Assembly (NCBI GenBank): GCA_029785685.1
Contig: JAFLZE010000007.1
Span: forward strand, 25,174-46,079
Source of the DNA: Nitrososphaerota archaeon
GTDB taxonomy: Archaea > Thermoproteota > Nitrososphaeria > Nitrososphaerales > UBA183
Direction: 5' to 3'
Length of the DNA stretch: 20,906 nucleotides
The notes beneath the pieces are model-generated. The model saw nothing but the letters and a program-made list of their open reading frames with translations, did no database searches and was not told where the DNA came from. The position numbers were made by a program, and so were the translations under genes. Shown piece after piece: positions 4,918-20,097 of the stretch (within the stretch, counting starts at the first letter, position 1; each line of letters begins with the position of its first letter).

Positions 4918-5553
4918 ATGTCTTCCCAGAAGCCGACCCGGCAGGAAATAGACGTCCGGGGCCTTCCACCGCATGAGAGACATGGCAAGGTGCTAGAGCT
5001 CTTCGACTCACTGAAGCCAGGAGAGGTTCTTTCGGTGGTGAACGACCACGAGCCGGTGCACCTGGTGGCGTTCATGAAGCATGAGCGCAGGGACTTCGAC
5101 CCTGAAGCGTACAGGGCCTACGAAAGGAGGTCGGGTGAGTGGGTGGGGGTGTTCACAAAACGCGTGGGCGTGGCTGGAGACAGGGCTGGTCCGGTCATGA
5201 CGAGCTTTGGAAGAGAAAGGCAATACAGTGACTCCTCTTTTTCGCCGGTTCCGGTCTATGCGACGCCCTCGTATCGGGTGCTGCTCACCTACATCAGGGC
5301 CGGGCAGTTCATCCCTGTCCATACGCCTAACATCGACCTGATCTTTGTGGTGCAGTCAGGGAAAGGCACGGTGGTTGCCGGGAGCGAGAGACAGAGAATA
5401 TCCCCTGGAGACGTGATAATTGTCCCCAAAGGAGTCAGGCGCGGGATCTTGGCCGAGACCGACATGGAAGCGCTCCATGTGGTCTCTCCTCCTCCCGGCG
5501 ACTCTGATCACGAAGAGGTCTCCCGGAAGATAGCGGCCGGCTCCTTCGAGTGA
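4918..5553 (+). CDS. DUF2249 domain fused to a cupin domain
   Basis: The 211-residue protein has two parts. Residues about 10-60 match DUF2249, a TusA-like fold: DVRGLPPHERHGKV (12-25), the Leu-rich helix, SLKPGEVLSVVNDHEPVHL (31-49). Residues about 115-192 are a cupin barrel: IRAGQFIPVHTPNIDLIFVV, then SGKGTVV, ISPGDVIIVPKGVRRG and ALHVVSP. The usual cupin metal triad is poorly kept (one His at 135), so it may bind a small molecule or act structurally. In bacteria DUF2249 proteins often neighbour NnrS, hemerythrin-like and denitrification genes. Here an NnrS-like gene follows after 30 nt, presumably in one transcript. The domain calls are good; the function is unknown. Confidence 0.8.
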   Translation: MSSQKPTRQEIDVRGLPPHERHGKVLELFDSLKPGEVLSVVNDHEPVHLVAFMKHERRDFDPEAYRAYERRSGEWVGVFTKRVGVAGDRAGPVMTSFGRERQYSDSSFSPVPVYATPSYRVLLTYIRAGQFIPVHTPNIDLIFVVQSGKGTVVAGSERQRISPGDVIIVPKGVRRGILAETDMEALHVVSPPPGDSDHEEVSRKIAAGSFE

Positions 5554-5583: not shown

Positions 5584-6753
5584 ATGGCCCTCCCCTTCAT
5601 GGGCGCCTCCATTGCTTTCATGCTCCTCGCGCTGATGGCGGGGATTTTCCGCCTCATGGCCCAGAACGGGGTCGGTCCCGTGGTGCTGGGCAACCTCTTC
5701 GCTCTACACCCTCTGCTGATGGTCTTCGGTTTCATAGCGGGGATGATCGTCACTGAGAGGATAGCAGGCGTCGAACTCCTGCCACATACAAAGCAGACTC
5801 GCCTCTCCCTCGCAATACCTCCGTTCATCTTCGTAGGGATGGCGGTTGAAATGCTAGGCTTTCTCTTCGATCTTGCCCTGGCTAGCTATGTCGGCGCGGC
5901 GTTGCTCGTGGTTGCATCTCTCCTCTTCCTTTCATTGCTGCGCTCGTTCCTTACGATGGGGCGCGAGAAGATGTCGGTCCTATTCATGGTCGTTTCCGGC
6001 GTCGCTCTGCTGCTCTCTGCCCTCCTCTCGGCCTTCTCGCTCCCTGCTGGGAACGTGGGCTTCGTGATGACCCTTCTCCTGTTCCCGGTCGTCTTTGTAC
6101 TCGGCGAAAGAGTGGAACTGACCAGCCTGGCGACCAAGAGCTCTTCGGACAGGTTCGTCCCCGCGCTCATCATGGTCGCGGTGGCGCTCGGCCTGTTCGG
6201 ACTGGATGCGTGGTCCTTGACTTCGATGACCCTCGTCGCGTTCGGGTTGACCGGCCTCACCTTCGGGTTCTTCTTGGTTAATGAGAGGAAGGCGCGTCCC
6301 AACGCGACAGCCTTGCCCTTCCAGAAATATGTGCGCAACCACGTCGAGCTCGCCTACGTCTGGGGTCTGGCTGGATCTGTGTTTGGGGTAGCCTATTCGC
6401 TCTCTCCCTTGTTCGTTTTTTACGATGCCTTCATCCACTCGCTCGCGTTGGGCTTCATCGGGCTGATGTTCCTGGCGCACGGCCCGATAATACTCCCCAT
6501 GGTGACCCGCAGGCAGTTCGACAACGCGAAGCTTTCCTCCATCCCACTCGCAATCCTCATGGTCGCCCTCGTTACAAGGATAGGTTCTGAGCTTGCGCTT
6601 CTGTACGATGGTGCTTGGCTGCTCAATCTCTCCGTTGCGGTTTCAGGGTGGCTGGTCCTCCTCGCCGTCGCGGCCTTTTTCGTTGAGATTCTCCGCGGGA
6701 CCAGGCGAAGCGGGGCGGAGCGCCACCTAGGCGCCGTCCAAGCGCCAAAGTGA
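5584..6753 (+). CDS. NnrS-like polytopic membrane protein
   Basis: The 389-residue protein is almost entirely membrane-spanning, with about 12 hydrophobic segments. An early helix starts LHPLLMVFGFIAGMIV (His42), and late in the protein comes DAFIHSLALGFIGLM followed by LAHGPIILPMVTR. These two His-containing motifs resemble the NnrS family, heme- and copper-associated membrane proteins that relieve nitrosative stress in bacteria. The ATG at 5584 follows AGGA by 2-3 nt and in-frame stops lie just upstream. The gene follows the DUF2249-cupin gene by 30 nt and converges on the PrpD-like gene. A shorter, divergent paralogue forms the N-terminal part of the protein at 11512-13188. Assignment rests on motif and topology, so a related heme-copper family remains possible. 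Confidence 0.7.
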   Translation: MALPFMGASIAFMLLALMAGIFRLMAQNGVGPVVLGNLFALHPLLMVFGFIAGMIVTERIAGVELLPHTKQTRLSLAIPPFIFVGMAVEMLGFLFDLALASYVGAALLVVASLLFLSLLRSFLTMGREKMSVLFMVVSGVALLLSALLSAFSLPAGNVGFVMTLLLFPVVFVLGERVELTSLATKSSSDRFVPALIMVAVALGLFGLDAWSLTSMTLVAFGLTGLTFGFFLVNERKARPNATALPFQKYVRNHVELAYVWGLAGSVFGVAYSLSPLFVFYDAFIHSLALGFIGLMFLAHGPIILPMVTRRQFDNAKLSSIPLAILMVALVTRIGSELALLYDGAWLLNLSVAVSGWLVLLAVAAFFVEILRGTRRSGAERHLGAVQAPK

Positions 6754-9516: not shown

Positions 9517-10143
9517 ATGATAGAGGTCCGGTTGGCAATCCAGAACCCGGCGAACTGGGTAGGGAGTCTGGCCGAGTCTGCCCGCGTCAAGATAGTCGAC
9601 GTAAAGGAAAGGAAGGGAGTCGTGGAAGACTTCGTGGAGCTCTCGTCGGAGAGCCTTTCACCAGAGGAGATACTTTCTCACCTGAGGGCGACGGCGGGGG
9701 TCCTCTCGGCCGACATGACGAAGGTCGACAGGAACAGGGTAATCGGCATGGTCTCTACACACAGTTGCCCCATCTGCTCCACCTTCGCCGGACTGAACTG
9801 CTTTCTCATCTCGGCAAACACCAGGGATGACGGGAAGATGGAGTGGAGGCTTTTCATCGGCGGCGACACCGACCTCAAAAAGCTCTGCGGGAGGCTCGAT
9901 GCCAACGGGGTCAAGTACGATATCCTTGAGGTTTCGCGCCATGCGCAGAAGAAGGAGATTACCGCGAGGCAGGAGGAGATCCTGAGGGTGGCCCTTGACC
10001 TCGGATACTTTGAATTCCCGAAGAGGATGCATCTTGAAGAACTGGCGGAAAAGCTTGGAATAACGCCTGGAACCCTCTCCGAAATCCTCAGGAGAGCGGA
10101 GAAGAACATCATCTCGAACCACTTCGGCACCGCCAGGGAATGA
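9517..10143 (+). CDS. HTH_10 (bacterio-opsin activator type) regulator with a Cys cluster
   Basis: The 208-residue protein ends in the archaeal Bat-type helix-turn-helix (about 148-203): TARQEEILRVALDLGYFEFP, KRMHLEELAEKLGITPGTLS, EILRRAEKNII. The N-terminal 145 residues form a sensor-like domain with STHSCPICSTFAGLNCF, giving C84-x2-C87-x7-C95, plus C124. Such a Cys arrangement could hold zinc or an iron-sulfur cluster, or act as a thiol switch. A TATA box 28 nt upstream implies leaderless transcription. It precedes two hemerythrin-like genes and the NnrS-Ddn fusion in the same orientation, so it is a plausible O2/NO/redox-responsive regulator of that set. The HTH call is strong; the signal is inferred. 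Confidence 0.85.
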   Translation: MIEVRLAIQNPANWVGSLAESARVKIVDVKERKGVVEDFVELSSESLSPEEILSHLRATAGVLSADMTKVDRNRVIGMVSTHSCPICSTFAGLNCFLISANTRDDGKMEWRLFIGGDTDLKKLCGRLDANGVKYDILEVSRHAQKKEITARQEEILRVALDLGYFEFPKRMHLEELAEKLGITPGTLSEILRRAEKNIISNHFGTARE

Positions 10144-10308
10144 CGTCTCAGCTTTCGGCTCCGCCTGCCGCGGGCCATCGTGGGGTCGGCAATGCTTCCG
10201 GTTGACAAACCCCCTTCCGGGGGCCAGCCATAGGGTAAGCCAATAGCAGCTCTGATGCCATAATTGTTTGGGGTTAACGCTAACTCCACCCCCTTCCCTT
10301 CTGTCCTC
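10144..10308 (+). promoter_or_regulatory. Regulatory region ahead of the hemerythrin genes
   Basis: This 165-nt gap holds a perfect GC-rich hairpin (CCCCC 10210-10214, loop TTCC, GGGGG 10219-10223) that may end the regulator transcript. A TATA-like CATAATT follows at 10259-10265. An imperfect 7-N4-7 inverted repeat follows it: GGGGTTA 10270-10276, spacer ACGC, TAACTCC 10281-10287, with one mismatch. The repeat lies between the TATA box and the expected transcription start, where a bound repressor would block initiation. Confidence 0.4.
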
Positions 10309-10770
10309 ATGAGTGGTTTGCAAGCTCCGAGTTCCCTTGCGGAGGAACACCGCGGGCTTTTCCGCGAACTCGTGGAACTGGAGTCGGAGGGAGGCAAGAC
10401 AGGAAAAGCCGTCAACGAGCTTTTGGCGGTCCTTGAGCCGCACTTCGAAAAGGAGGAGGAAGCTGTGATGCCCCTTCTCGGAGCCCTAAGGCCGCTCTCC
10501 GAAGGGAAGGCGATACGTGATTATTCCGAAGCGATATCTCTTCACGAGAGGTTCTCGTCAGACTATCCGATGATGCTAAAGGAACATGCACAGGTGAAGA
10601 AGCTCATCGAGCGCGTTCGGACGGCGGCAAGGAAGGAAGGCAAAGGCGGCGTTGTAGCGGCGATGGACGAACTCGAGCACCACGCCAAAGTGGAAGAAGA
10701 GGTTCTCTACCCGGCCGCCATGCTGGTCGGAGCGTTCGCGAGCGGCAAGGCAAAGGCGAAGGTCTCTTGA
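10309..10770 (+). CDS. Hemerythrin-like (HHE) domain protein 1
   Basis: The 153-residue, four-helix protein carries the spaced His/Glu set of hemerythrin-like domains: LAEEHRGLFREL (His14), LEPHFEKEEEAVMPLL (His45, Glu49), LKEHAQVKKLI (His93) and ELEHHAKVEEEVLYP (His124/125, Glu129/130). These would hold a di-iron centre that binds O2 or NO or supports iron-sulfur repair as in YtfE/RIC proteins. ATG 10309 is chosen over an in-frame TTG at 10264, which lies inside the TATA region. A Lys/Ala-rich tail follows the last helix. The next hemerythrin-like gene starts inside its stop codon (TTGA), so the two are translated together. Confidence 0.85.
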   Translation: MSGLQAPSSLAEEHRGLFRELVELESEGGKTGKAVNELLAVLEPHFEKEEEAVMPLLGALRPLSEGKAIRDYSEAISLHERFSSDYPMMLKEHAQVKKLIERVRTAARKEGKGGVVAAMDELEHHAKVEEEVLYPAAMLVGAFASGKAKAKVS

Positions 10771-11186
10771 GCGTCGTCGAGCCGATAGAACATCTGCAGG
10801 AACTCCGTGCGCTGGTTAGTCAACTGGAAAGGGAACACAAGAAGTTCGCGTCCGACATCGACGGACTCGAAGCAAAGGTCCAGGCAGACGAAGCCGACTT
10901 GGTCAAAGAGCTCTTCATTCGGTTGCAGGACAGCCTGACCGATCACATGCTGGTGGAGGAATTCGAAGTCTATCCCGAACTCATGCGAAAGAACCTATTC
11001 GATGCGGCGATAAGCTCCATAATGCAGCAGCATCACGACGTGACATCCTCGCTCGGCAAGATGGAGCTTTCCCTTCGTTTGGGGAACTTCATAGAATTTC
11101 AAGCGGCCCTTGAAGAGCTCGCCGCCGTCCTGCGCGAGCACCAGCCTGCAGAAGAAGAGAAGGTTTTCCCGCTCGCGACGGGTTGA
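10767..11186 (+). CDS. Hemerythrin-like (HHE) domain protein 2
   Basis: The 139-residue protein has the same fold and ligand pattern as its neighbour but is clearly diverged: LEREHKKFASD (His24), LTDHMLVEEFEVYPEL (His60, Glu64), MQQHHDVTSSL (His89/90) and LREHQPAEEEKVFPL (His125, Glu129/130). Start TTG 10767 overlaps the upstream TGA by TTGA, indicating translational coupling and perhaps a stable heteromer of the two proteins. A small Cys protein gene follows after 12 nt. An O2/NO-binding or iron-sulfur repair role is inferred from the family. Confidence 0.85.
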   Translation: MSVVEPIEHLQELRALVSQLEREHKKFASDIDGLEAKVQADEADLVKELFIRLQDSLTDHMLVEEFEVYPELMRKNLFDAAISSIMQQHHDVTSSLGKMELSLRLGNFIEFQAALEELAAVLREHQPAEEEKVFPLATG

Positions 11187-11198
11187 GGGGTGCTCCTT

Positions 11199-11501
11199 AT
11201 GGCCGACCCTCGACATTCAGGGCCAAAGGCTAGGCAGCCGAGATTCTGTTCCCTGTGCGCGGCTTCTGGCGTCGTCACCCCGTCGGAGTGGTACCGCGCG
11301 ACGCAGCTGGAGTACTGCACCTTCCACTACTGGCTCATGCGAGGGCGTGTTGGGAGCCACGCCTATTCGCTGGAAGACTACGCGAACGCGTCGAAAAGAT
11401 TCGCCTTCAGGGTTTCCCTGCCTTCGAGGGCCGACTGCGAAATGATGCAGAAGGAGGGCGACGGAAAGCACAGTAAGCCCGCCACAGAGCTCGGGACCTG
11501 A
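11199..11501 (+). CDS. Small CxxC...CxxH protein, probably zinc-binding
   Basis: This 100-residue protein has C17-S-L-C20 and C40-T-F-H43 separated by 19 residues, a spacing seen in small zinc-binding folds, plus a lone Cys near residue 82. The region between (TPSEWYRATQLEY) is aromatic. ATG 11199 is preferred over a TTG at 11190 because GAGGGGTG stands 6 nt upstream of it. It lies 12 nt after the second hemerythrin gene and 10 nt before the NnrS-Ddn gene, so it belongs to that operon. The family is not recognised; an iron-sulfur or redox-sensing role is as possible as zinc. Confidence 0.65.
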   Translation: MADPRHSGPKARQPRFCSLCAASGVVTPSEWYRATQLEYCTFHYWLMRGRVGSHAYSLEDYANASKRFAFRVSLPSRADCEMMQKEGDGKHSKPATELGT

Positions 11502-11511
11502 GGGGACATCC

Positions 11512-13188
11512 ATGTTGAATCGGAGTCAGGCAGGCACCGGCCAGGGATCTGTCCCCTCCACACAGCCGAAAGCCGCGCAGAGGCCAGAGCGGACGCTCAC
11601 TCTCCTCTCAGTTTCGACCGGAGTACTGTTCGCGTTCATCGGCAGCACGGTCGGCGCCCTTTTCTTGGGCCAGCTGTCCGGGCTGCCCATCGAAACAGGA
11701 GCCAGCCTGTTTCCCAGCCACCCCTTCCTGCAGATCTATGGCTTCATCGCGCTCTTCGTCATGGGCGTCGACTACTCCCTCCTGCCCCGCTTCAAGGTGG
11801 GGAGACTCCCTTCGCTGGTCCTCGGGTATGCCGCCTATGCCTCGATCACCGCAGCCAATGCCTTCTTTCTGCTCTACTCTATCCTTCCACTCGGCTCGTT
11901 TCAGTACGTGACGGCCGGCGCCCTGCTCATGCTCGCTGGCTCGGCGATCTCTCTCTCACAGGTGGTCATCCTGGTCACGAGGCCCTCAGGAGGCTTCCCA
12001 GAGGCCAATCCTCTGATCATGCTGTCGTCGATTTCTCTCGTCATGATATCGCTCCTCCTGGTCGCCGGATCGGCGGGATACCCGCTCCCGGGCGGGACGT
12101 TCTCTCCGCAGATGGTCTATCTCGCGCTCGTTGGGTTCGCCGGTTCCATGATCTATGCGGTCGAAATCAGGTCGGTCAGCTTCAGGCAGTGCAACTACAG
12201 GAAGCAGGTCGCGAACCTGTGCTGGGTCCTGCAGGGGCTGGGCATAGGCGGCATGTTCACGGGGGTGGTGACGAGGAGCAACCTCTTCTCACTGCTCGGA
12301 GCGGTCCTCCTCCTCGGTGCGGCCCTGAGCCAGCTGGTGTCCATCAAGATCCTGGAGCTGGCGCACCCGCTGATGTACAGACCCGCGATGACCAAGATGC
12401 ACTTCAGAATCATGAGATACAACGAGGTCTGCATGCTCCTGGCTTCCGGGTGGCTGGTGTTCGGGTCGCTGATGGGGATGGTCTGGCTGGCGACCGGGAC
12501 GGGCACCTTCTTTGTCAAGGACTCTTTCATCCACGCCATAGCCATCGGGTTCGTGGGGTCAACCATAACCTGTTTCGCGCCTATGCTCCTGCCCGGACTC
12601 TTGGGACACAAGGGGCCGGTTACGGGACTGTCGTTCGGTCCCATCGTCATCCTGAACGCCGGGGTACTGGTCAGAATCGTCGGTGATTTCCAGACACTGA
12701 CAGCGCGAGCCCCACCCCTCTGGGAGTCCGTGTCTGGCCCCCTGGTGCTGGTGGCGATGGGGTGGTTCCTGGTGATGATCCGAGGGATAGGAAGGCCGAA
12801 ACAGGCGGCTGCGCAGAGCAGCGTGTCAAGGAAGTTCAGCCTCGCTGAGTCTCGGGGGATTGCGGAAGGGCAGCTCACAGTCTCCACTAGAACGACAAAC
12901 AGAGAGGTGACGTTCCCGGTCTGGTTCGTCGTTGCGGATGGCTTAATCCATCTCCTGCCCGTCAACGGCTCCTCGACAAGGTGGTACAGGAACGTCTCGA
13001 AGAACCCGGGCGTGAAGATCACAATAGCCGGGCACGTCTACCTTGGCACTGCGCAGTCCACTCGGGAGAAGGAGAAGGTGAAGCAGGTGATGGACATCTT
13101 CAGGGACAAATACGGGGACAGAAACTGCAGGAATTTCTTCGGAGACCGGACGGATGTGGCGGTGAGCGTTTACGTCCCTTCGCCGTAG
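11512..13188 (+). CDS. NnrS-like membrane domain fused to a Ddn-like split barrel
   Basis: The 558-residue protein has two unrelated parts. Residues about 28-425 form about 12 membrane helices with FPSHPFLQIYGFIALFVMG (His70) early and DSFIHAIAIGFVGSTITC followed by APMLLPG late, the same His-bearing motif pair as the NnrS-like protein at 5584-6753. Residues about 455-558 resemble the deazaflavin (F420)-dependent nitroreductase (Ddn/PNPOx-like) barrel: TNREVTFPVWFVVADGLIHL, GSSTRWYRNVSKNPGVKI, and a C-terminal FRDKYGDRN helix. The barrel would be on one face of the membrane, presumably the cytosol. ATG 11512 follows GAGGGGAC by 4-5 nt. Last gene of the hemerythrin operon. Each domain call is fairly good; the combined function is unknown. 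Confidence 0.75.
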   Translation: MLNRSQAGTGQGSVPSTQPKAAQRPERTLTLLSVSTGVLFAFIGSTVGALFLGQLSGLPIETGASLFPSHPFLQIYGFIALFVMGVDYSLLPRFKVGRLPSLVLGYAAYASITAANAFFLLYSILPLGSFQYVTAGALLMLAGSAISLSQVVILVTRPSGGFPEANPLIMLSSISLVMISLLLVAGSAGYPLPGGTFSPQMVYLALVGFAGSMIYAVEIRSVSFRQCNYRKQVANLCWVLQGLGIGGMFTGVVTRSNLFSLLGAVLLLGAALSQLVSIKILELAHPLMYRPAMTKMHFRIMRYNEVCMLLASGWLVFGSLMGMVWLATGTGTFFVKDSFIHAIAIGFVGSTITCFAPMLLPGLLGHKGPVTGLSFGPIVILNAGVLVRIVGDFQTLTARAPPLWESVSGPLVLVAMGWFLVMIRGIGRPKQAAAQSSVSRKFSLAESRGIAEGQLTVSTRTTNREVTFPVWFVVADGLIHLLPVNGSSTRWYRNVSKNPGVKITIAGHVYLGTAQSTREKEKVKQVMDIFRDKYGDRNCRNFFGDRTDVAVSVYVPSP

Positions 13189-13220: not shown

Positions 13221-13868
13221 TCACATGCCTAGGGGAGGGCCTCCTCTGAAGTGCTCTTCCAACAGCTTCTTCTGCGTCTTCCGCAGCGACTCGTAAAGCG
13301 TGGGAGGCGCGACATCCATCATTCTTGCTAGGGGTCCGATGCGGATTCTCTTTGGGTAGTCGAAGTATCCGTTTTCGTAGGCAGAGCGGATGAGCCATTC
13401 CTGTCGCGTGGTAAGCGCCCTCGTCCTCTTCACCTCTGAAATGTCGCTCACCCTAAAATCGACCCTCAGCCTCCTTAACCTCGCCATGAGCTCTCTCAAG
13501 GAATGTTTCGTCCCAAGCACCCTCCACGCGATCTCCCTGCCCGACCCGTTCGATGCGTAAACAAGGAAGCAGTCCGAGTCCGCCACGCACCTCATGACCA
13601 CTCCTTTCGCTCGCACTATGCCGACAAGTCTGCCGTGGCTCGAATTCGTTATCTCGAGCTCAGATATGTCCGGACTGTTCCGAAGGTACCTGAGTAGCCG
13701 ATTTTCCAGCTTCCGGTCGACTGTAATCTCGAACAGCTCGAGTATCTCGTCTCGCCTCCGCGTCCCCTTGGAGTTCAGCAGCCTCAACCTCGCTCCGTAC
13801 CGTCCCGTCACCGCGTCGATCCACTTCTGGTGACCCTCTACAAGAATCGTGGCCTCGATTAGATCCAA
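13221..13868 (-). CDS. HTH_10 (bacterio-opsin activator type) regulator, second copy
   Basis: The 215-residue protein ends in a Bat-type HTH (about 151-206): TTRQEWLIRSAYENGYFDYP, KRIRIGPLARMMDVAPPTLY, ESLRKTQKKLL. The N-terminal sensor-like domain has MRCVADSDCFLVY (C94, C100) and lacks the three-Cys cluster of the paralogue at 9517-10143. Start TTG 13868 is supported by TTTAAG (plus-strand 13895-13900) lying 27-32 nt upstream, which implies a leaderless transcript. It diverges from the redox operon starting at 13977, with a perfect inverted repeat between, so it may control that operon and itself. It converges on the NnrS-Ddn gene with 32 nt between. Confidence 0.85.
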   Translation of the reverse strand: MDLIEATILVEGHQKWIDAVTGRYGARLRLLNSKGTRRRDEILELFEITVDRKLENRLLRYLRNSPDISELEITNSSHGRLVGIVRAKGVVMRCVADSDCFLVYASNGSGREIAWRVLGTKHSLRELMARLRRLRVDFRVSDISEVKRTRALTTRQEWLIRSAYENGYFDYPKRIRIGPLARMMDVAPPTLYESLRKTQKKLLEEHFRGGPPLGM

Positions 13869-14315: not shown

Positions 14316-14744
14316 ATGGTAAGACCAGTAGATTACAAGACGAAACCCATCGACCCTGATTTCCTCTCAAAGCCAGACGAGTTCCCGATCACCGGTGAGC
14401 ATAACGGCCACAAGGTCAGGGCGCAGGGGCTTTCGAGGACGAGCGGCGATGGCAGCCCCTATCCCACCACCCAGGGGATACATGGCAGTCAGGTGGCGGT
14501 GGACTGGGAGACGTGCATCGCCGACGGAGTATGCATGGATGTCTGTCCCGTCTTCGTCTTCGAATGGGCCCTCACCCCCGGCCAGGCAGGGACGGGGAAG
14601 GACAAGATAATCGAACAGAACACGGACGAGTGGAAAAGCTACCGGACCGATAAGTCAGAACCGATAAGGGAGCCGGACTGCATCTTCTGCATGGCGTGTG
14701 AAACCAGCTGTCCAACCCAAGCCATCAAGATCACCCAGCCCTAA
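14316..14744 (+). CDS. Zinc-containing dicluster ferredoxin
   Basis: The 142-residue protein matches the 7Fe zinc ferredoxins of Sulfolobus and Thermoplasma. Cluster I: C67-IAD-GV-C73-MDV-C77-P, where Asp70 takes the place of a Cys as expected for a 3Fe-4S centre, completed by C132. Cluster II: C122-IF-C125-MA-C128 with C132-P nearby. The N-terminal extension has GEHNGH (His29, His32) and GIHG (His56), the zinc-binding His of these proteins. A family-specific insert lies between the clusters. ATG 14316 follows GAGGGGAGAGGAG. It is the natural electron acceptor of the 2-oxoacid:ferredoxin oxidoreductase encoded just downstream. Confidence 0.92.
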   Translation: MVRPVDYKTKPIDPDFLSKPDEFPITGEHNGHKVRAQGLSRTSGDGSPYPTTQGIHGSQVAVDWETCIADGVCMDVCPVFVFEWALTPGQAGTGKDKIIEQNTDEWKSYRTDKSEPIREPDCIFCMACETSCPTQAIKITQP

Positions 14745-14770
14745 AGCGATTAGAGGTGTGAATAGACTAA

Positions 14771-14911
14771 TTGGTTGCTGACGAAACGCGCTTGGACGTC
14801 TGTCCCGGCTGCCAGGACCCCATCGACCAGTGCAGGTGCGCTTGTCCGTCGTGCGGCCAGGTCGAGGGGTGCGACTGCGCCATAGGACGAGACATGGCGA
14901 CGGGAGGATAG
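14771..14911 (+). CDS. 46-residue, 8-Cys zinc-ribbon-like protein
   Basis: A short frame from TTG 14771 to TAG 14909-14911 encodes 46 residues with eight Cys at 11, 14, 21, 23, 25, 28, 34 and 36, in CPGCQDPIDQCRCACPSCG and GCDCAIG. The pattern would hold two zinc ions or an iron-sulfur cluster. GAGGTGTG lies about 11 nt upstream. It sits 26 nt after the ferredoxin gene and 4 nt before the OFOR alpha-gamma gene, so it is translated as part of the operon. Too Cys-rich and too well placed to be chance. It may help cluster assembly on the oxidoreductase or act as a small carrier; no family is recognised. Confidence 0.7.
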   Translation: MVADETRLDVCPGCQDPIDQCRCACPSCGQVEGCDCAIGRDMATGG

Positions 14912-14915
14912 AAGG

Positions 14916-16886
14916 ATGAGCTCGAAGACTGTGAACGAACTCAATTGGATGATCGGGGGGGCCCAGGGGAGTGGGGTCGACCTCTCAGCCAGTTCGTTCG
15001 CCAGGTCGTGCGCCCTCGCGGGCCTCTGGGTTTACGGGACTAGGGAGTACTACTCGAACATCAAGGGCCTGCACAGCTACTTCGAGATCAGAACGAGCGG
15101 CCGGCAGATAAGGTCCAAGGTCGAGGGGGTGGACCTTCTCGCGACTTTCGACGCTGAAACCGTAGTCAGGCACGCAGACGCAGTCAATCCGGATGGCGGG
15201 ATAATCTACGACCCTGCGGTCTCCCAGACGCCCATCGAGAAGGTCGATACGCTCTACAAGGACGAGGTGAGGCAGATTCAGGCCAGGCTCGCCCAGGAGG
15301 GACTCGGTTCGGACGTCGACGCGATTCTGGAGGAGGCGAAAGGGAGGGGGGTCAAGCTCTTCGCCATCCCGTACGGCGCCCTGATCCAAGAGATTGCCAA
15401 GCGCCTGGAGACGTCAGAGCTCACTCGACTCAACAGGATTGTGAACGTCCTCGCCGTCTCCGTCTCTCTTTCTCTGTTAGGTCTCGACAGGCGCTACATG
15501 GAGGAATCGGTGCGCCAGGCCTTCGCAGCTTCAAGGAAGCAGAAGCTTGTAGAAATGAACCTGGCCGGGGTAGATAGGGCCTACGAGTTCGCCAAAGAGA
15601 AGTTCGGCGAGGGAGGCCTTCCTATCAGACTCGCTCCCATCCAGAACAAACCCAGGATGTTCGTGGTGGGGAACCAGGCCGTCGCCCTGGGGAAGATGGC
15701 CGGGGGCTGCAGGCTGCAGACCTACTATCCCATCACCCCGGCGAGCGACGAGAGCGAATTCCTCGAAGCCCATGAGAATTTCGACCTGCTAGGCGGGGAG
15801 TCCAACGACGGCAAAGGCTCGATCGTGGTCGTGCAGACGGAAGACGAAATCGCAGCCGTCACCATGGCCATAGGCGGGGCGCTCGCCGGTACCAGGGCGG
15901 CCACCTCTACCTCCGGGCCAGGTTTCTCCCTGATGGTCGAAGGAATGGGCTGGGCGGGGATGAACGAAGTGCCTGTGGTGGTTACCTTGTACCAGAGAGG
16001 CGGACCATCGACCGGCATGCCGACCAGGACGGAGCAGGGCGACCTGAAGTTCGTCCTGAACGCCTCTCACGGGGAGTTTCCGCGGATGGTCCTCTGCTCG
16101 GGGGACATGGAGGAGTGCTTCTACGACGCCTTCAGGGCCATGAACTACGCGGAGAGGTATCAGCTCCCAGTCATCCACTTGGTCGACAAGGGGCTCGCCA
16201 ACAGCAACATGACGATACTGCCCCCCGACCCGAACTTGGTAGACATCGAGAGGGGGAAGCTTATCCTGACTAGCGGCGGTGGTGCGCCCAAGGACGGGGA
16301 ATACAGGAGGTTCGCGCCCGCCGAGGATGGTATCTCGCCGAGGGCAGTGTTGGGTCTCAAGGGGTACAGGTTCTGGAATACCGGAGACGAGCACGACGAG
16401 CTCGGCCACATAAACGAGAACTCCGAGAACAGGATAAGGATGATGAAGAAGAGGATGTCGAAGTTGGAAACCGCAGACAGGGAGATACCTGTGACCGAGA
16501 AGGTCGGCTTCTACGCTGCCGCGGGGCGTCCTGACGTCACCCTCGTCAGTTGGGGGTCGTCGAAGGGCGCCATCCTCGAAGGGATGGAACTGCTGGAGAA
16601 GAGGGGGATCAAGGCAGAGTTCCTCCAGATCAGGCTCGCAAGCCCGTTCCCCGCGCAGGCGGTGCGCGAGAGGCTGTCAGAGGCGAAGCTGGTCATAGAC
16701 ATAGAGCAGAATTATTCGGCCCAGATGGCGGCCGTCATAGCGGAGAAGACACAGATCAACATCAAGCACAGGGTTGTAAAGTTCAACGGACGGCCGATAT
16801 CGTGTAACGAAATCTATGATTCGGTTAGACAGATCGTGGCAAGACCTGAAGCTAACGAAAGGGTGATCCTCACACATGGCGCTTAA
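14916..16886 (+). CDS. 2-oxoacid:ferredoxin oxidoreductase, fused gamma-alpha subunit
   Basis: The 656-residue protein joins an N-terminal gamma domain (MIGGAQGSGVDLSASSFARS and YYSNIKGLHSYFEIRTS) to the alpha subunit's pyrimidine domain. The signature YPITPAS lies near residue 270, followed by SIVVVQTEDEIAAVTMAIGG and GTRAATSTSGPGFSLM. Domain III (PDVTLVSWGSSKGAIL) and a C-terminal EQNYSAQMAAVI stretch follow. Length and gamma-alpha order match the Sulfolobus-type heterodimeric enzyme, which oxidises 2-oxoacids to acyl-CoA and CO2 and reduces ferredoxin. ATG 14916 has GAAGG 4 nt upstream. The stop overlaps the beta-subunit start by 11 nt. Substrate range cannot be read from sequence alone. 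Confidence 0.93.
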   Translation: MSSKTVNELNWMIGGAQGSGVDLSASSFARSCALAGLWVYGTREYYSNIKGLHSYFEIRTSGRQIRSKVEGVDLLATFDAETVVRHADAVNPDGGIIYDPAVSQTPIEKVDTLYKDEVRQIQARLAQEGLGSDVDAILEEAKGRGVKLFAIPYGALIQEIAKRLETSELTRLNRIVNVLAVSVSLSLLGLDRRYMEESVRQAFAASRKQKLVEMNLAGVDRAYEFAKEKFGEGGLPIRLAPIQNKPRMFVVGNQAVALGKMAGGCRLQTYYPITPASDESEFLEAHENFDLLGGESNDGKGSIVVVQTEDEIAAVTMAIGGALAGTRAATSTSGPGFSLMVEGMGWAGMNEVPVVVTLYQRGGPSTGMPTRTEQGDLKFVLNASHGEFPRMVLCSGDMEECFYDAFRAMNYAERYQLPVIHLVDKGLANSNMTILPPDPNLVDIERGKLILTSGGGAPKDGEYRRFAPAEDGISPRAVLGLKGYRFWNTGDEHDELGHINENSENRIRMMKKRMSKLETADREIPVTEKVGFYAAAGRPDVTLVSWGSSKGAILEGMELLEKRGIKAEFLQIRLASPFPAQAVRERLSEAKLVIDIEQNYSAQMAAVIAEKTQINIKHRVVKFNGRPISCNEIYDSVRQIVARPEANERVILTHGA

Positions 16887-17853
16887 GCTGGCCGACGTCC
16901 GGACGGACCTACACAACGACTGGTGCAGCGGCTGCGGTGACTTCGGGATCGAGGCGTCGCTTCAGATGGCGCTGACTGAGATGAACGTGGACATACACAG
17001 GGTCGTCATCTTCTCAGGGATAGGCTGCCATGGCAAGATCGTCCACTGGACCAACGCCTTCGGGATTCACACACTTCATGGGAGGACGCTCCCCTTCGCG
17101 CAGGGCGCGAAGCTCGCCAACCCCGGGTTGGAGGTCATCGCCATTAGCGGGGACGGGGACGGCTACGGCATCGGGGCGGGGCACTTCGTTCATTCGGGGA
17201 GGCGGAATGTGGACATGACGTACATCGTCCACGACAACGGAGTCTACGGGCTCACCAAGGGGCAGGCCTCTCCGACCCAGAAGCTAGGCGAGCAGACGAA
17301 ATCCCTCCCCCAGCCGAACATAAACAGCGCCGTCAACCCCATAATGCTCGCTCTCGCGGCGGGGTACACTTTCATCGCTCGCAGTTACGCCTTCGACAAC
17401 AGGCACCTGAAGGACACAATCAAACGAGCAGTCGCCCACCGAGGCTTAGCCCTTGTGGACGTCCTTCAGCCCTGCCCCACGTACAACGACATCGAGACCA
17501 AGGCCTTCTACAGCGGGGAGGATAGGCCCGACCCGTCTACTCACAGGCCGGTACCACGGGTCTACGACATCGAGAAGACAGGCTACAACCCGTTGATCAC
17601 GACAGACATGACAAACGAAGACGTGGACAAGAAGACGCTGGAAGTAATCAGGATATCCAATGAATGGGGGGACAGGATACCCGTCGGCGTCTTCTACCAG
17701 AACGAGAACGTCCCCACCTACGAAGACAGGATAATGCGCAGGGTCCCCTTCTACCTCGACCAACCCCCCGCCACCCAACAGATCCAGCTTCAGAACAAGA
17801 AGTCGGCGGTGGACCTCTCCAGCCTCCTGAAGGAGTTGACCATAGGGGGTTGA
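16876..17853 (+). CDS. 2-oxoacid:ferredoxin oxidoreductase, beta subunit
   Basis: The 325-residue protein binds thiamine diphosphate and one 4Fe-4S cluster. NDWCSGCGDFG gives C17 and C20, FSGIGCHGK gives C51, and LQPCPTYND near residue 200 gives the fourth Cys. AISGDGDGYGIGAGHF followed by VHDNGVYGLTKGQ is the TPP/Mg motif. It starts 11 nt inside the alpha-gamma gene and so is translationally coupled. Its codons 150-175 (17323-17399) recur with perfect nucleotide identity, inverted, at the right edge of the window. The enzyme would feed the zinc ferredoxin encoded upstream. Confidence 0.93.
   Translation: MALKLADVRTDLHNDWCSGCGDFGIEASLQMALTEMNVDIHRVVIFSGIGCHGKIVHWTNAFGIHTLHGRTLPFAQGAKLANPGLEVIAISGDGDGYGIGAGHFVHSGRRNVDMTYIVHDNGVYGLTKGQASPTQKLGEQTKSLPQPNINSAVNPIMLALAAGYTFIARSYAFDNRHLKDTIKRAVAHRGLALVDVLQPCPTYNDIETKAFYSGEDRPDPSTHRPVPRVYDIEKTGYNPLITTDMTNEDVDKKTLEVIRISNEWGDRIPVGVFYQNENVPTYEDRIMRRVPFYLDQPPATQQIQLQNKKSAVDLSSLLKELTIGG
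17323..17399 (+). repeat. 77-nt inverted repeat, copy 1 (inside OFOR beta)
   Basis: This segment, from AACAGCGCCGTC to TTCGACAA, matches the reverse complement of 20830-20906 at every base. It encodes NSAVNPIMLALAAGY and following residues of OFOR beta. The match breaks at the next base (C here, A in the other copy); the other end runs off the window, so the true repeat may be longer. Confidence 0.95.
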
Positions 17854-17885
17854 GGTCGCGTGAACGAGAGGCAGGGCGAGCCCGA

Positions 17886-19109
17886 TTGCCAGATCATGCG
17901 GATTACCTGATCGTCGGCGGAGGCGTGGCGGGAGGGCATGCGGCCTATGCGATTAGGAAGCACGACAGGACTGGGAGGATAGTGGTCGTCTCCGATGAGA
18001 GGCAGTTCCCGTACGACCGCGTCCCTCTGTCCAAGGAATTCCTTGCGGGGAAGAGGAAGAGAAAGGAGCTCTTCTTCAAGGGGAACTCGTACTATTCAAG
18101 GAACAAGGTGGAGGTAATCAGGGAGCGCAGAGCCGAGGCGCTCGACATTTCGAGCAAGACACTGCGGCTTGACAACGGGCAGGCGTTCTCTTACAAAAGG
18201 CTGCTACTTGCGACAGGGGGGCGCCCCAGGAAGCTGCAGTTGCCCGGGTCGGACCTCGCTGGGATCTATTACCTGAGGACGCTCGAAGACTGCGACGCCA
18301 TAAGGAATGCTTCGTCAGGGGCCGGCGAGGCCGTAATCGTCGGGGGTGGGTTCATAGGATGTGAGGTCGCTGCGACGCTCCGCGGCAGGGGCCTGAAGGT
18401 TACCCTCGTGGAACTGGCCGACCATCTGCTAGGGGCAGCGATCGACGAAAAGACCGCCGGCTGGATTCAGGGATATCACGCCAAACAGGGTGTGAAGGTC
18501 CTGACCAAGACGACTGTCAACGAATTCGTTGGCAAGGACGGGCGGGTGACGGGCGTGAAGCTAGGGGGCGGCCTCGTGGTCCCCGCAGACCTCGTGGTTG
18601 TGGGGGTGGGCATAATACCGAATATTGAGGTTGCCCAAGAGGCGGGCCTCAAGGTGGACAGGGGCGTCGTCGTCGACGAGCGCCTCAGGACGAGCGCGAC
18701 GGGCGTGTATGCCGCTGGGGATGTCGCAAGGTTCTACAGCCCAATCCTCAAGCGCGTCATGAGGGTGGAGCATTACGACTTGGCAGAGAGGCAGGGCGCC
18801 GTCGCTGGGTCGAACATGGCGGGCAGAAGGGCTACTTTCGAGGAGCTTCCCTATTTCTTCTCCAACCAGTACGACCTCGAGATAAACGCGTACGGAGACC
18901 TGTCCAGCCGGACGTCTACAGTCCTCAGGGGGGGCCTGAATTCCAGCGCGGGTTTCTTACAATTCTACTTCAACGGGAATGTCCTCGACGGGGTCCTCTC
19001 CATAAATCGGGATTGGGATGAGATAGAGAAGGCCAAGGCCCTGGTCGAGCGGAGAAAGGCGATTGCCGACCCTTCGGCGGTCGGGGATGAATCGAGGGCC
19101 CTGAGATAG
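17886..19109 (+). CDS. FAD-dependent NAD(P)H oxidoreductase (ferredoxin/rubredoxin reductase type)
   Basis: The 407-residue flavoprotein has the FAD Rossmann motif DYLIVGGGVAGGHAAYAI (6-23), FPYDRVPLSKEFL, ATGGRPR, the NAD(P)H Rossmann motif VIVGGGFIGCEVAATL, and the second FAD motif TGVYAAGDVARF, followed by EHYDLAERQGAVAGSNMAG. This order is typical of rubredoxin/putidaredoxin reductase and AIF-like enzymes. There is no CxxC redox disulfide. TTG 17886 is chosen because homology begins there; TTG 17850, overlapping the beta-subunit stop as TTGA, would add 12 Arg-rich residues and is a real alternative. It probably exchanges electrons between NAD(P)H and a small carrier: the zinc ferredoxin, the Rieske protein or the four-Cys protein of the same operon. 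Confidence 0.88.
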   Translation: MPDHADYLIVGGGVAGGHAAYAIRKHDRTGRIVVVSDERQFPYDRVPLSKEFLAGKRKRKELFFKGNSYYSRNKVEVIRERRAEALDISSKTLRLDNGQAFSYKRLLLATGGRPRKLQLPGSDLAGIYYLRTLEDCDAIRNASSGAGEAVIVGGGFIGCEVAATLRGRGLKVTLVELADHLLGAAIDEKTAGWIQGYHAKQGVKVLTKTTVNEFVGKDGRVTGVKLGGGLVVPADLVVVGVGIIPNIEVAQEAGLKVDRGVVVDERLRTSATGVYAAGDVARFYSPILKRVMRVEHYDLAERQGAVAGSNMAGRRATFEELPYFFSNQYDLEINAYGDLSSRTSTVLRGGLNSSAGFLQFYFNGNVLDGVLSINRDWDEIEKAKALVERRKAIADPSAVGDESRALR

Positions 19110-19463
19110 ATGATAAGAATACAGAAGTCAATCTACGACGAAGCCGAGCCCTCGGACGGAAAACGAATCCTCGTGATGAGGATTTGGCCGAGAGGCATCT
19201 CGAAAAGCAAGGTCGATGTCTGGATGAGGGATCTCGGGACCCCGAAGGAGCTGATAAGGCAATGGAAGGACGGAAAGATTTCCTGGAACAAATTCGCGGC
19301 CAAATACAAAGAGAGCCTGAAAGGGAAAGAGGGGCTTCTCAGGGGCTTGGCGGAAGAGTCCAGAAAGGGAACGATCACGCTGCTTTGTACAGAGAAGGAC
19401 CCGACAATCTGCCACAGGTCTCTCCTGAAAGACGCGATAGAGGGGACCTCGAGGGCTGGATAG
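19110..19463 (+). CDS. Short DUF488 family protein (YeaO-like)
   Basis: The 117-residue protein has the hallmarks of the short DUF488 branch: LVMRIWPRGISKSKV (21-35), WMRDLGTPKELIRQW (38-52), and LLCTEKDPTICHRSLLKDAI with the conserved Cys and CHR near the end. ATG 19110 follows the upstream TAG with no gap, so it is translated in series with the FAD reductase. Function in this family is not established. It is the second DUF488 protein in the window; the two differ in length and share mainly the C-terminal Cys/HR region. Confidence 0.85.
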   Translation: MIRIQKSIYDEAEPSDGKRILVMRIWPRGISKSKVDVWMRDLGTPKELIRQWKDGKISWNKFAAKYKESLKGKEGLLRGLAEESRKGTITLLCTEKDPTICHRSLLKDAIEGTSRAG

Positions 19464-19467
19464 TCTC

Positions 19468-19779
19468 ATGCGAACGAAAGGAACGGAACCAGAGCTCCGG
19501 AGAAGCCTGAGGAGGCTGGCTTGGCAGGACGAGAATTGCCTGGCGTGTGCATGGTTCTCACCCAACGATCCGATCAACGCCGACTTGCTGGAGCGCGGAA
19601 AGTGCGTTCATCCGAAGCTAAGGGAGTACAACCTGATAGTCTCAGGACGCGACTGGTGCAATCTCTTCGAGGAGACAACACGGCAAAACATCGATGACCT
19701 TCAGGAGAAGGCTATGAAGGCAGAAGAGGAACTAGGACTAGCGCACAGCAGGGCCGAGACGTCGCGGCGGGGTAAGTGA
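19468..19779 (+). CDS. Four-Cys small protein with a HiPIP-like pattern
   Basis: The 103-residue protein has C24-L-A-C27, C46 in ERGKCVHPKL, and C64 in SGRDWCNLF. The order C-x2-C, a single C about 18 residues later, and a final W-C about 17 residues after that recalls high-potential iron-sulfur proteins (HiPIP), whose last Cys often follows an aromatic residue. Against this, there is no Tat signal, the spacings are slightly long, and a long helical tail (about 70-100) follows. A zinc-binding protein is the alternative. The ATG lies 4 nt after the DUF488 stop and the Rieske gene starts 4 nt after its own stop, so it is in a run of electron-transfer genes. Confidence 0.65.
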   Translation: MRTKGTEPELRRSLRRLAWQDENCLACAWFSPNDPINADLLERGKCVHPKLREYNLIVSGRDWCNLFEETTRQNIDDLQEKAMKAEEELGLAHSRAETSRRGK

Positions 19780-19782
19780 AAG

Positions 19783-20097
19783 TTGCCTGGCGAATTCGTG
19801 AGGGTCGCAAGCAGAAACGAAGTCCAAGAAGGCAAGATGAAGGAAGTCAGCGTGGGTGCGAACAAAATCATGCTGGCGAATGTCGGAGGAGAGTTCTTCG
19901 CGATGGGAAACTCGTGCACCCACATGGGCGGACCTCTTGCACGAGGGAGATTGGAGGGCCACGTAGTGACCTGCCCGTGGCACGGCTCGCAGTTCGACGT
20001 CAGGACGGGAGCAGTGGTCCGGTCGCCGGCGGAAAAGCCCCAACCATGTTACGAGGTGCGGGTTGAAGGAGAGCACATCCTGCTCAAGACGACTTGA
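19783..20097 (+). CDS. Rieske [2Fe-2S] ferredoxin
   Basis: The 104-residue soluble protein has both Rieske cluster motifs: C45-T-H47-MGGPL and C64-PW-H67-GSQFD. A short FVRVASRNEVQEG opening and a C-terminal TGAVVRSPAEKPQPCYEV are typical of small NirD/BphA3-like Rieske ferredoxins. There is no membrane anchor, so it is cytosolic. TTG 19783 is the start, 4 nt after the previous stop. It closes the operon. In dioxygenase systems such a ferredoxin takes electrons from an FAD reductase like the one encoded at 17886-19109, so those two are likely partners; no oxygenase is visible here. Confidence 0.9.
   Translation: MPGEFVRVASRNEVQEGKMKEVSVGANKIMLANVGGEFFAMGNSCTHMGGPLARGRLEGHVVTCPWHGSQFDVRTGAVVRSPAEKPQPCYEVRVEGEHILLKTT

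Follow-up and report, generated by a model that had tools for sequence, protein, structure and literature searches.

An archaeal fusion of an NnrS-like membrane domain and a split barrel, with a putative role in nitrosative stress

The window analyzed here, a stretch of 20,906 nucleotides from a Nitrososphaerota archaeon (assembly GCA_029785685.1, contig JAFLZE010000007.1, positions 25,174 to 46,079 of the forward strand; positions below count from its first letter), carries a gene whose product joins a 12-helix, NnrS-like membrane domain to a C-terminal split barrel resembling F420-dependent reductases. This fused architecture is real and conserved. We tentatively read the protein, with slightly less than even confidence, as a membrane b-cytochrome of NnrS type that belongs to a nitrosative-stress locus of archaea and is equipped with a cytosolic split-barrel input module; fold, ligands and topology were computed, and we infer heme content, electron path and a role in nitric oxide (NO) defense.

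The fused gene and its conservation

The gene and its parts are the following, with the fold and the cytosolic placement as predicted by the model described below (aa, amino acids; TM, transmembrane helix; pLDDT, predicted local distance difference test).

11512..13188, + strand: fusion gene, 558 aa in an uninterrupted frame, a 12-helix domain of NnrS-like/heme-copper-oxidase fold plus a C-terminal split barrel
11584..12786, + strand: membrane domain, residues 25-425, 12 TM helices, N-in/C-in
12787..12864, + strand: linker, residues 426-451, with low pLDDT at 431-440
12865..13173, + strand: cytosolic split-barrel domain, residues 452-554 (DUF2255 / F420H2_quin_red; PF10012, PF04075, Foldseek)

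An AlphaFold model of the fusion protein, built from a 40-sequence alignment (mean pLDDT 85.1, predicted template modeling score 0.78), places helices 1-6 at residues 25-55, 62-94, 102-124, 132-155, 163-187 and 199-224, helices 7-12 at 231-254, 257-278, 295-328, 333-364, 376-394 and 403-425, and barrel strands at 452-458, 465-475, 478-481, 500-505, 508-517 and 550-554. Twelve helices thus run into a split barrel, as the original prediction of an NnrS-like membrane domain continuing into a Ddn/PNPOx-superfamily barrel had it. The loops, each extended by four residues into the adjoining helices, contain on average over the 40 rows 21.6 lysines and arginines on the N-terminal side of the membrane vs 2.1 on the opposite side, and therefore both termini and the barrel should be cytosolic.

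By searching 5.77 billion proteins and scoring the 7997 candidates that shared the most words, we obtained 61 relatives at E<=0.001, whose taxon names, where given (most rows are nameless), are Nitrososphaerota, Nitrososphaerales or Conexivisphaerales. Fifty-nine of them are at least 455 aa long, the two short ones (P0012 and P0058) end inside the membrane part, and a PF04075 and/or PF10012 domain is precomputed for 41 of the 61. The fused-family alignment of 40 rows consists of the window protein and 39 of these relatives; the other 22 were near-copies, shorter rows or rows thinned for diversity. In a survey of 300 genomes of the order, with at most four candidates per genome scored, matches spanning both parts were found in five genomes from two families, so that the architecture, which the original prediction asked to be sought in other archaea, does recur there. 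The frame is unbroken in G000, G028, G082 and G016, the copy in G029 has a break near residue 65-70, and in G001 a contig end truncates the fusion gene; identity to the window fusion is 83% in G028, 76% in G016 and 47% in G082.

These data also bear on the possibility that an assembly error or a frameshift created the fusion, which the original prediction had allowed for as a join at about residues 425-455. Membrane-only and barrel-only relatives do exist separately, as an artefact would have it, but the length of the relatives, the full-length copies in G028, G016 and G082, and the spread of fused copies over two families all speak against it, as does the barrel tree. Once four long-branch stand-alone rows are dropped from this tree of 67 rows in total, a branch (100/99) separates the fused barrels from the 23 remaining stand-alone ones; with all 67 rows the fused barrels are not one clade (2 changes). 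Because independent assemblies carry the fusion, an artefact is refuted in practice, and we regard its probability as negligible.

In the tree of the membrane part, the barrel-less relatives G041 and G108 lie outside the fused clade, and barrel-less G034 lies inside it on a long branch, which we read as barrel loss. Of 20 membrane positions checked in G034, 18 are retained and two, K95 and G365, are changed. A single fusion, followed by erosion of the barrel in one branch and its loss in another, fits these sequence comparisons best, and the barrel was probably acquired once.

Membrane domain and heme ligands

Three sites in the membrane domain matter for what follows.

11719..11721, + strand: H70 in TM2, predicted low-spin heme ligand (40/40), aligned by hhalign to the TM2 heme His of CcoN
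12526..12534, + strand: F339-I340-H341 in TM10, at the HxH place of heme-copper oxidases by hhalign (F339 37/40, H341 40/40)
12400..12402, + strand: H297, cytosolic end of TM9, invariant in the fused family and G034

In the model, the membrane part is a heme-copper-oxidase subunit I fold. A merged profile of both archaeal families, aligned to 13 oxidases by hhalign, is collinear with them (E 5.4e-5, 66%, 389 columns) and sets H70 on the TM2 heme His and F339-I340-H341 on the TM10 HxH, in which the first His binds the b3 heme and the second the low-spin heme. The predicted low-spin pair H70/H341, which corresponds to the His pair of the original prediction, is therefore kept in every row, and the b3-ligand position is a Phe in most. 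The binuclear-site ligands are missing, as 0/40 fused members have a His in TM6 and 2/40 have one in TM7, none conserved, and the window protein has no match to PF00115 (COX1) at E<=1. With the low-spin pair kept and the b3 and copper ligands lost, the protein probably holds one low-spin heme and no heme-copper reaction center, and a canonical NO- or O2-reducing center is unlikely; the membrane heme-copper site that had been suggested for this protein is thus not borne out, its fold apart.

The same ligands decide on a terminal NO or O2 reductase fed by F420 and working at a heme-copper (or heme-iron) binuclear center. The fold, as in cbb3 oxidases and NO reductase (NOR), and the NO-type gene neighborhood described below would both suit such an enzyme, but the absent TM6 and TM7 His and the Phe at the b3 position make it very improbable. 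We rejected it for these missing ligands; a different, unprecedented active site is still conceivable.

Other conserved residues fall into two groups. H70, Q74, R93, D337, H341 and R388 are present in all six barrel-less relatives checked (7 are in the tree). H297, N304, Y229 and Q241, invariant in the fused family and G034, are absent in the other five membrane-only relatives checked, with the TM9 alignment of distant barrel-less rows being unsure; by topology these four would be at or close to the cytosolic face, the side of the barrel.

Denitrifiers commonly have NnrS. The fusion protein is very probably an NnrS-type protein with an oxidase fold. The fused-family profile matches that of archaeal NnrS-like paralogues at 99.7% (E 4.3e-27, profile-profile), and 13 of 30 such paralogues match PF05940 (NnrS) at E<=0.01, the best at 4e-10. 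The archaeal paralogue profile is in turn weakly linked to the rhizobial NnrS profile (11.5%). Several results weigh against this assignment and against the oxidase link. The window protein has no PF05940 match at E<=1 and does not reach the gathering score of 28, just one of the 40 fused members matches this family at E<=0.01 (0.0017), and the fused-family profile compared directly with 14 rhizobial NnrS proteins gave 0.1%. The conserved TM9 His of NnrS (H284 in 22/22 rhizobial proteins, H253 in 29/30 archaeal NnrS-like proteins) has no counterpart in the fusion, since archaeal H253 aligns to column 307, occupied by C in 24, G in 7, A in 5 and S in 4 of the 40 rows. The hhalign link to the oxidases is modest as well, at a score of 47.2 vs 43.0 for the best of 30 block-permuted decoys; none of the 30 reached 47.2, and these controls weaken the oxidase link as drawn from sequence only. 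Because the direct Pfam and rhizobial comparisons failed, the NnrS assignment rests on the archaeal paralogues and the fold.

An equation of H297 with bacterial H284 was considered and withdrawn, as archaeal H253 falls on C307 of the fusion. Bacterial H69, H172 and H334 are also unmatched in the fusion and, within a narrow rhizobial set, seemingly unmatched in the archaeal proteins too, so they do not define the NnrS family. A PF05940 search of 61 related genomes gave one sub-threshold match, and searching PDB sequences with the profile of the archaeal NnrS-like proteins turned up nothing meaningful. Among the archaeal paralogues, P0204 and P0206 (510 aa) are extended at the C-terminus by about 110-120 residues that include hydrophobic, membrane-like stretches, and P0210 and P0237, NnrS-like proteins, are labelled 'nitrite reductase (NO-forming)' by their source, probably a mislabel.

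The split barrel and its possible roles

The C-terminal barrel exceeds the cut-offs of PF10012 (DUF2255; residues 455-537, 31.6 bits, cut-off 29.8) and PF04075 (residues 455-546, 25.3 bits, cut-off 22), and at E<=0.01 DUF2255 is found in 31 and PF04075 in 29 of the 40 fused members. The families originally named for the two halves therefore fared unequally, with PF04075 being found in the protein itself, PF05940 only in relatives, and PF01243 staying below its cut-off (15.1 bits, 28.1). Foldseek groups the barrel with Ddn (3r5r, E 1.9e-5) and further FDOR-A proteins that bind F420. One residue of the barrel is listed here.

12922..12924, + strand: W471, aligned with Ddn Tyr65, the cofactor-orienting residue (40/40)

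Ddn Tyr65 is described as orienting the cofactor and as needed for F420H2-dependent activity (PMC3567243). R537 is likewise invariant (40/40) and lies inside a highly conserved C-terminal FKDKYGxRN block. For comparison we used 27 stand-alone barrels, 26 of them in frames of 116-170 aa (mostly 116-144) and one of 386 aa. F420 binding by the barrel is possible, and its use as an electron input is less likely than not.

The evidence on the other side is as follows. A precomputed barrel domain is absent in 20 of the 61 relatives, two of these being cut short, and TIGR00026 stays below its cut-off (24.5 bits, 46.35). The motif Gx[KR]xG[QKE]xR, reported in all FDOR-A enzymes and holding the F420 tail (PMC5623714), occurs in 0/40 fused copies and in just 2/27 stand-alone kin, one of them L001 of the window genome itself; the looser GRK[TS] is present in 7/40 fused copies vs 15/27 stand-alone kin. 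Moreover, since G034 lost its barrel, the barrel is not essential to the membrane part. As the strict motif is also rare in stand-alone kin, its absence is mostly a trait of this kind of barrel, and the fused copies have eroded further. It would accordingly be too strong to say that fusion wore down a previously intact F420 loop, the strict motif being missing in 25/27 stand-alone kin too.

With the F420 loop this weak, the main rival is a barrel that has degenerated into a non-redox domain and serves as a cytosolic lid, dimerization or sensing module of an NnrS-like protein. Besides the motif counts, it draws support from the loss of the WYxN-type block in eight aligned rows (P0053-P0057 and P0059-P0061, two of them named Conexivisphaerales) and from G034, which keeps nearly all of the membrane positions checked without a barrel. 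Against it, W471, R537 and the FKDKYGxRN block are retained, and both domain models still match about three quarters of the fused members. We hold a non-redox barrel to be rather unlikely.

A further alternative would make the protein a membrane-anchored F420H2:quinone reductase, in which the NnrS-like part is only an anchor and a quinone site. Ddn itself is described as a quinone reductase that depends on F420H2 and associates with the membrane (PMC3567243), positively charged and aromatic residues where the helices end on the cytosolic side are invariant in the fused family, and the window genome holds the CofE family. Of the F420 genes that the original prediction wanted checked, the window genome also has the CofD family, which is less specific and is matched in genomes such as E. 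coli too. A mere anchor would have no need of the invariant H70/H341, however, and with the FDOR-A motif missing and a stress-type neighborhood, this reading is improbable.

Gene neighborhood, proposed mechanism and known systems

The genes around the fusion include the following.

9517..10143, + strand: HTH_10 regulator with C-x2-C-x7-C, first of the run (PF04967, 72.5 bits)
10264..10770, + strand: hemerythrin-domain protein 1 (PF01814, 55.9 bits)
10767..11186, + strand: hemerythrin-domain protein 2, with a 4-base overlap with hemerythrin 1 (PF01814, 52.9 bits)
11190..11501, + strand: 103-aa protein with CxxC and CxxH, ending 10 bases before the fusion gene (no Pfam match at E<=1)
13221..13868, - strand: second HTH_10 regulator, convergent (PF04967, 60.6 bits)
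5584..6753, + strand: NnrS-like paralogue without a barrel (PF05940, 11.9 bits, below 28)
4918..5553, + strand: DUF2249-cupin protein, also in the G082 locus

The fusion gene is the last of a co-directional run formed by the HTH_10 regulator, the two hemerythrins, the 103-aa protein and the fusion itself; the order is the same in G028 and G016, and the regulator is kept near the fusion in G028, G016, G029 and G082. In G082, from the other family, the genes near the fusion include an HTH_10 regulator, two hemerythrins, a DUF2249-cupin protein and an NnrS paralogue, so these neighbors are kept in two archaeal families; the G082 locus also holds a DUF488, a carboxymuconolactone-decarboxylase-type protein and a ferredoxin like the zinc-type one of the window. 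Some relatives of the 5584..6753 paralogue carry PF05940, and the barrel-less relative in G034 adjoins a NirK-like gene (under the model's cut-off). The second HTH_10 gene was not found at the G029 locus. These surroundings look like a nitric-oxide stress response, and on balance we favor an NO or nitrosative role for the fusion protein, even though none of these neighbors is present in the 11 kb upstream of the fusion gene in G001, and the window genome (78% complete) has neither a NirK-like nor a COX1/PF00115 match.

Several other features of these loci were recorded. The C-x2-C-x7-C motif (CPxCSxxxGLNC) is found in both HTH_10 regulators near a fusion (window 9517-10143; L093 8137-8793) and is absent from the second HTH_10 protein at 13221-13868; it may bind a metal or Fe-S cluster or sense NO. 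Blocks CSLC and YCTFHYWL occur in the 103-aa protein, which is present in G028 and G016 and was not found in G029. G016, which has the fusion, also has a qNOR-like gene (L060 / L107, PF00115 85.6 bits) with the blocks HSYVEGFW, GTAHHFYW and AHAHASF. After the fusion, window 14316-20097 encodes a zinc-type ferredoxin, the alpha and beta subunits of a 2-oxoacid:ferredoxin oxidoreductase (beta assigned by position and synteny only), an FAD reductase of dioxygenase-reductase type and a Rieske-type ferredoxin, a run mostly kept in G028 and G016, with its first three genes in G029.

Under our preferred reading of an NnrS-type b-cytochrome with an input module, the protein would carry a single low-spin heme b in the half of the membrane that faces outward, and the barrel, as a relative of Ddn-like reductases, would supply a two-electron reductant, either F420H2 or a flavin or quinone in its place. 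F420H2 is described as a low-potential, obligate two-electron carrier (PMC5449967) and hence should not reduce a heme directly, so the likeliest route would lead from the barrel to a quinone or flavin at the cytosolic face and then to heme b. The reductant would be delivered to a cytosolic-face site lined by R93, K95, R220, R225, Y229, R230 and H297, where the quinone or flavin would split the electron pair, and the heme would pass single electrons on, an output that may shield iron enzymes against NO. Where the barrel is degenerate (the branch of eight aligned rows), the input function would probably be lost and a structural or regulatory role would stay. NnrS has been described as containing heme and as a protein that would keep dinitrosyl complexes from affecting the iron pool (PMC11526790).

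If NnrS and its archaeal relative do share an oxidase fold with a low-spin heme only, NnrS would act by electron transfer or NO binding at a single heme and would not reduce NO at a copper-heme pair. The fusion also points to F420H2 or flavin as a candidate redox partner in the cytosol, and it would tie F420 metabolism to the defense of archaea against NO. It seems rather unlikely that the protein founds a new class, a deazaflavin-coupled membrane cytochrome with an oxidase fold devoid of an O2/NO center, in which one fusion forms a cytosolic F420H2/flavin-to-heme b conduit for defense against nitrosative stress and all of NnrS is a branch of the heme-copper oxidases lacking the binuclear site. 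The titles and abstract openings of the open PMC papers searched contained no NnrS-barrel fusion and no NnrS oxidase fold, which is weak evidence of novelty, and the main text of a paper on archaeal fusions (PMC11237513) does not mention NnrS, nitroreductase or DUF2255.

Several known systems resemble parts of the fusion. Its modeled membrane part shares its fold with cbb3 oxidases and NOR, and differs from heme-copper oxidases (cbb3 CcoN, NorB) in having neither the binuclear-center ligands nor a PF00115 match. To our knowledge, a cytosolic barrel is present in no described NnrS, nor did our searches yield one. With NnrS (PF05940), the fusion has in common the 12 helices, a His in TM2 and TM10, an Arg in TM11 and stress-type neighbors, and NnrS of S. 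meliloti likewise adopts an oxidase fold in a model made here; it departs from NnrS in staying under the Pfam threshold and in having no His where the S. meliloti protein has H284 in TM9. The barrel has the split-barrel fold of Ddn and the F420H2-dependent quinone reductases (PF04075, FDOR-A) and an aromatic residue at the Tyr65 position, whereas, unlike those enzymes, it lacks Gx[KR]xG[QKE]xR, follows 12 membrane helices and has the conserved FKDKYGxRN block at its C-terminus. The stand-alone barrels of related archaea of the same order are akin to it. The WF block is common to most of them, and those read over their whole length also share the WYxN-type block with the fused barrels.
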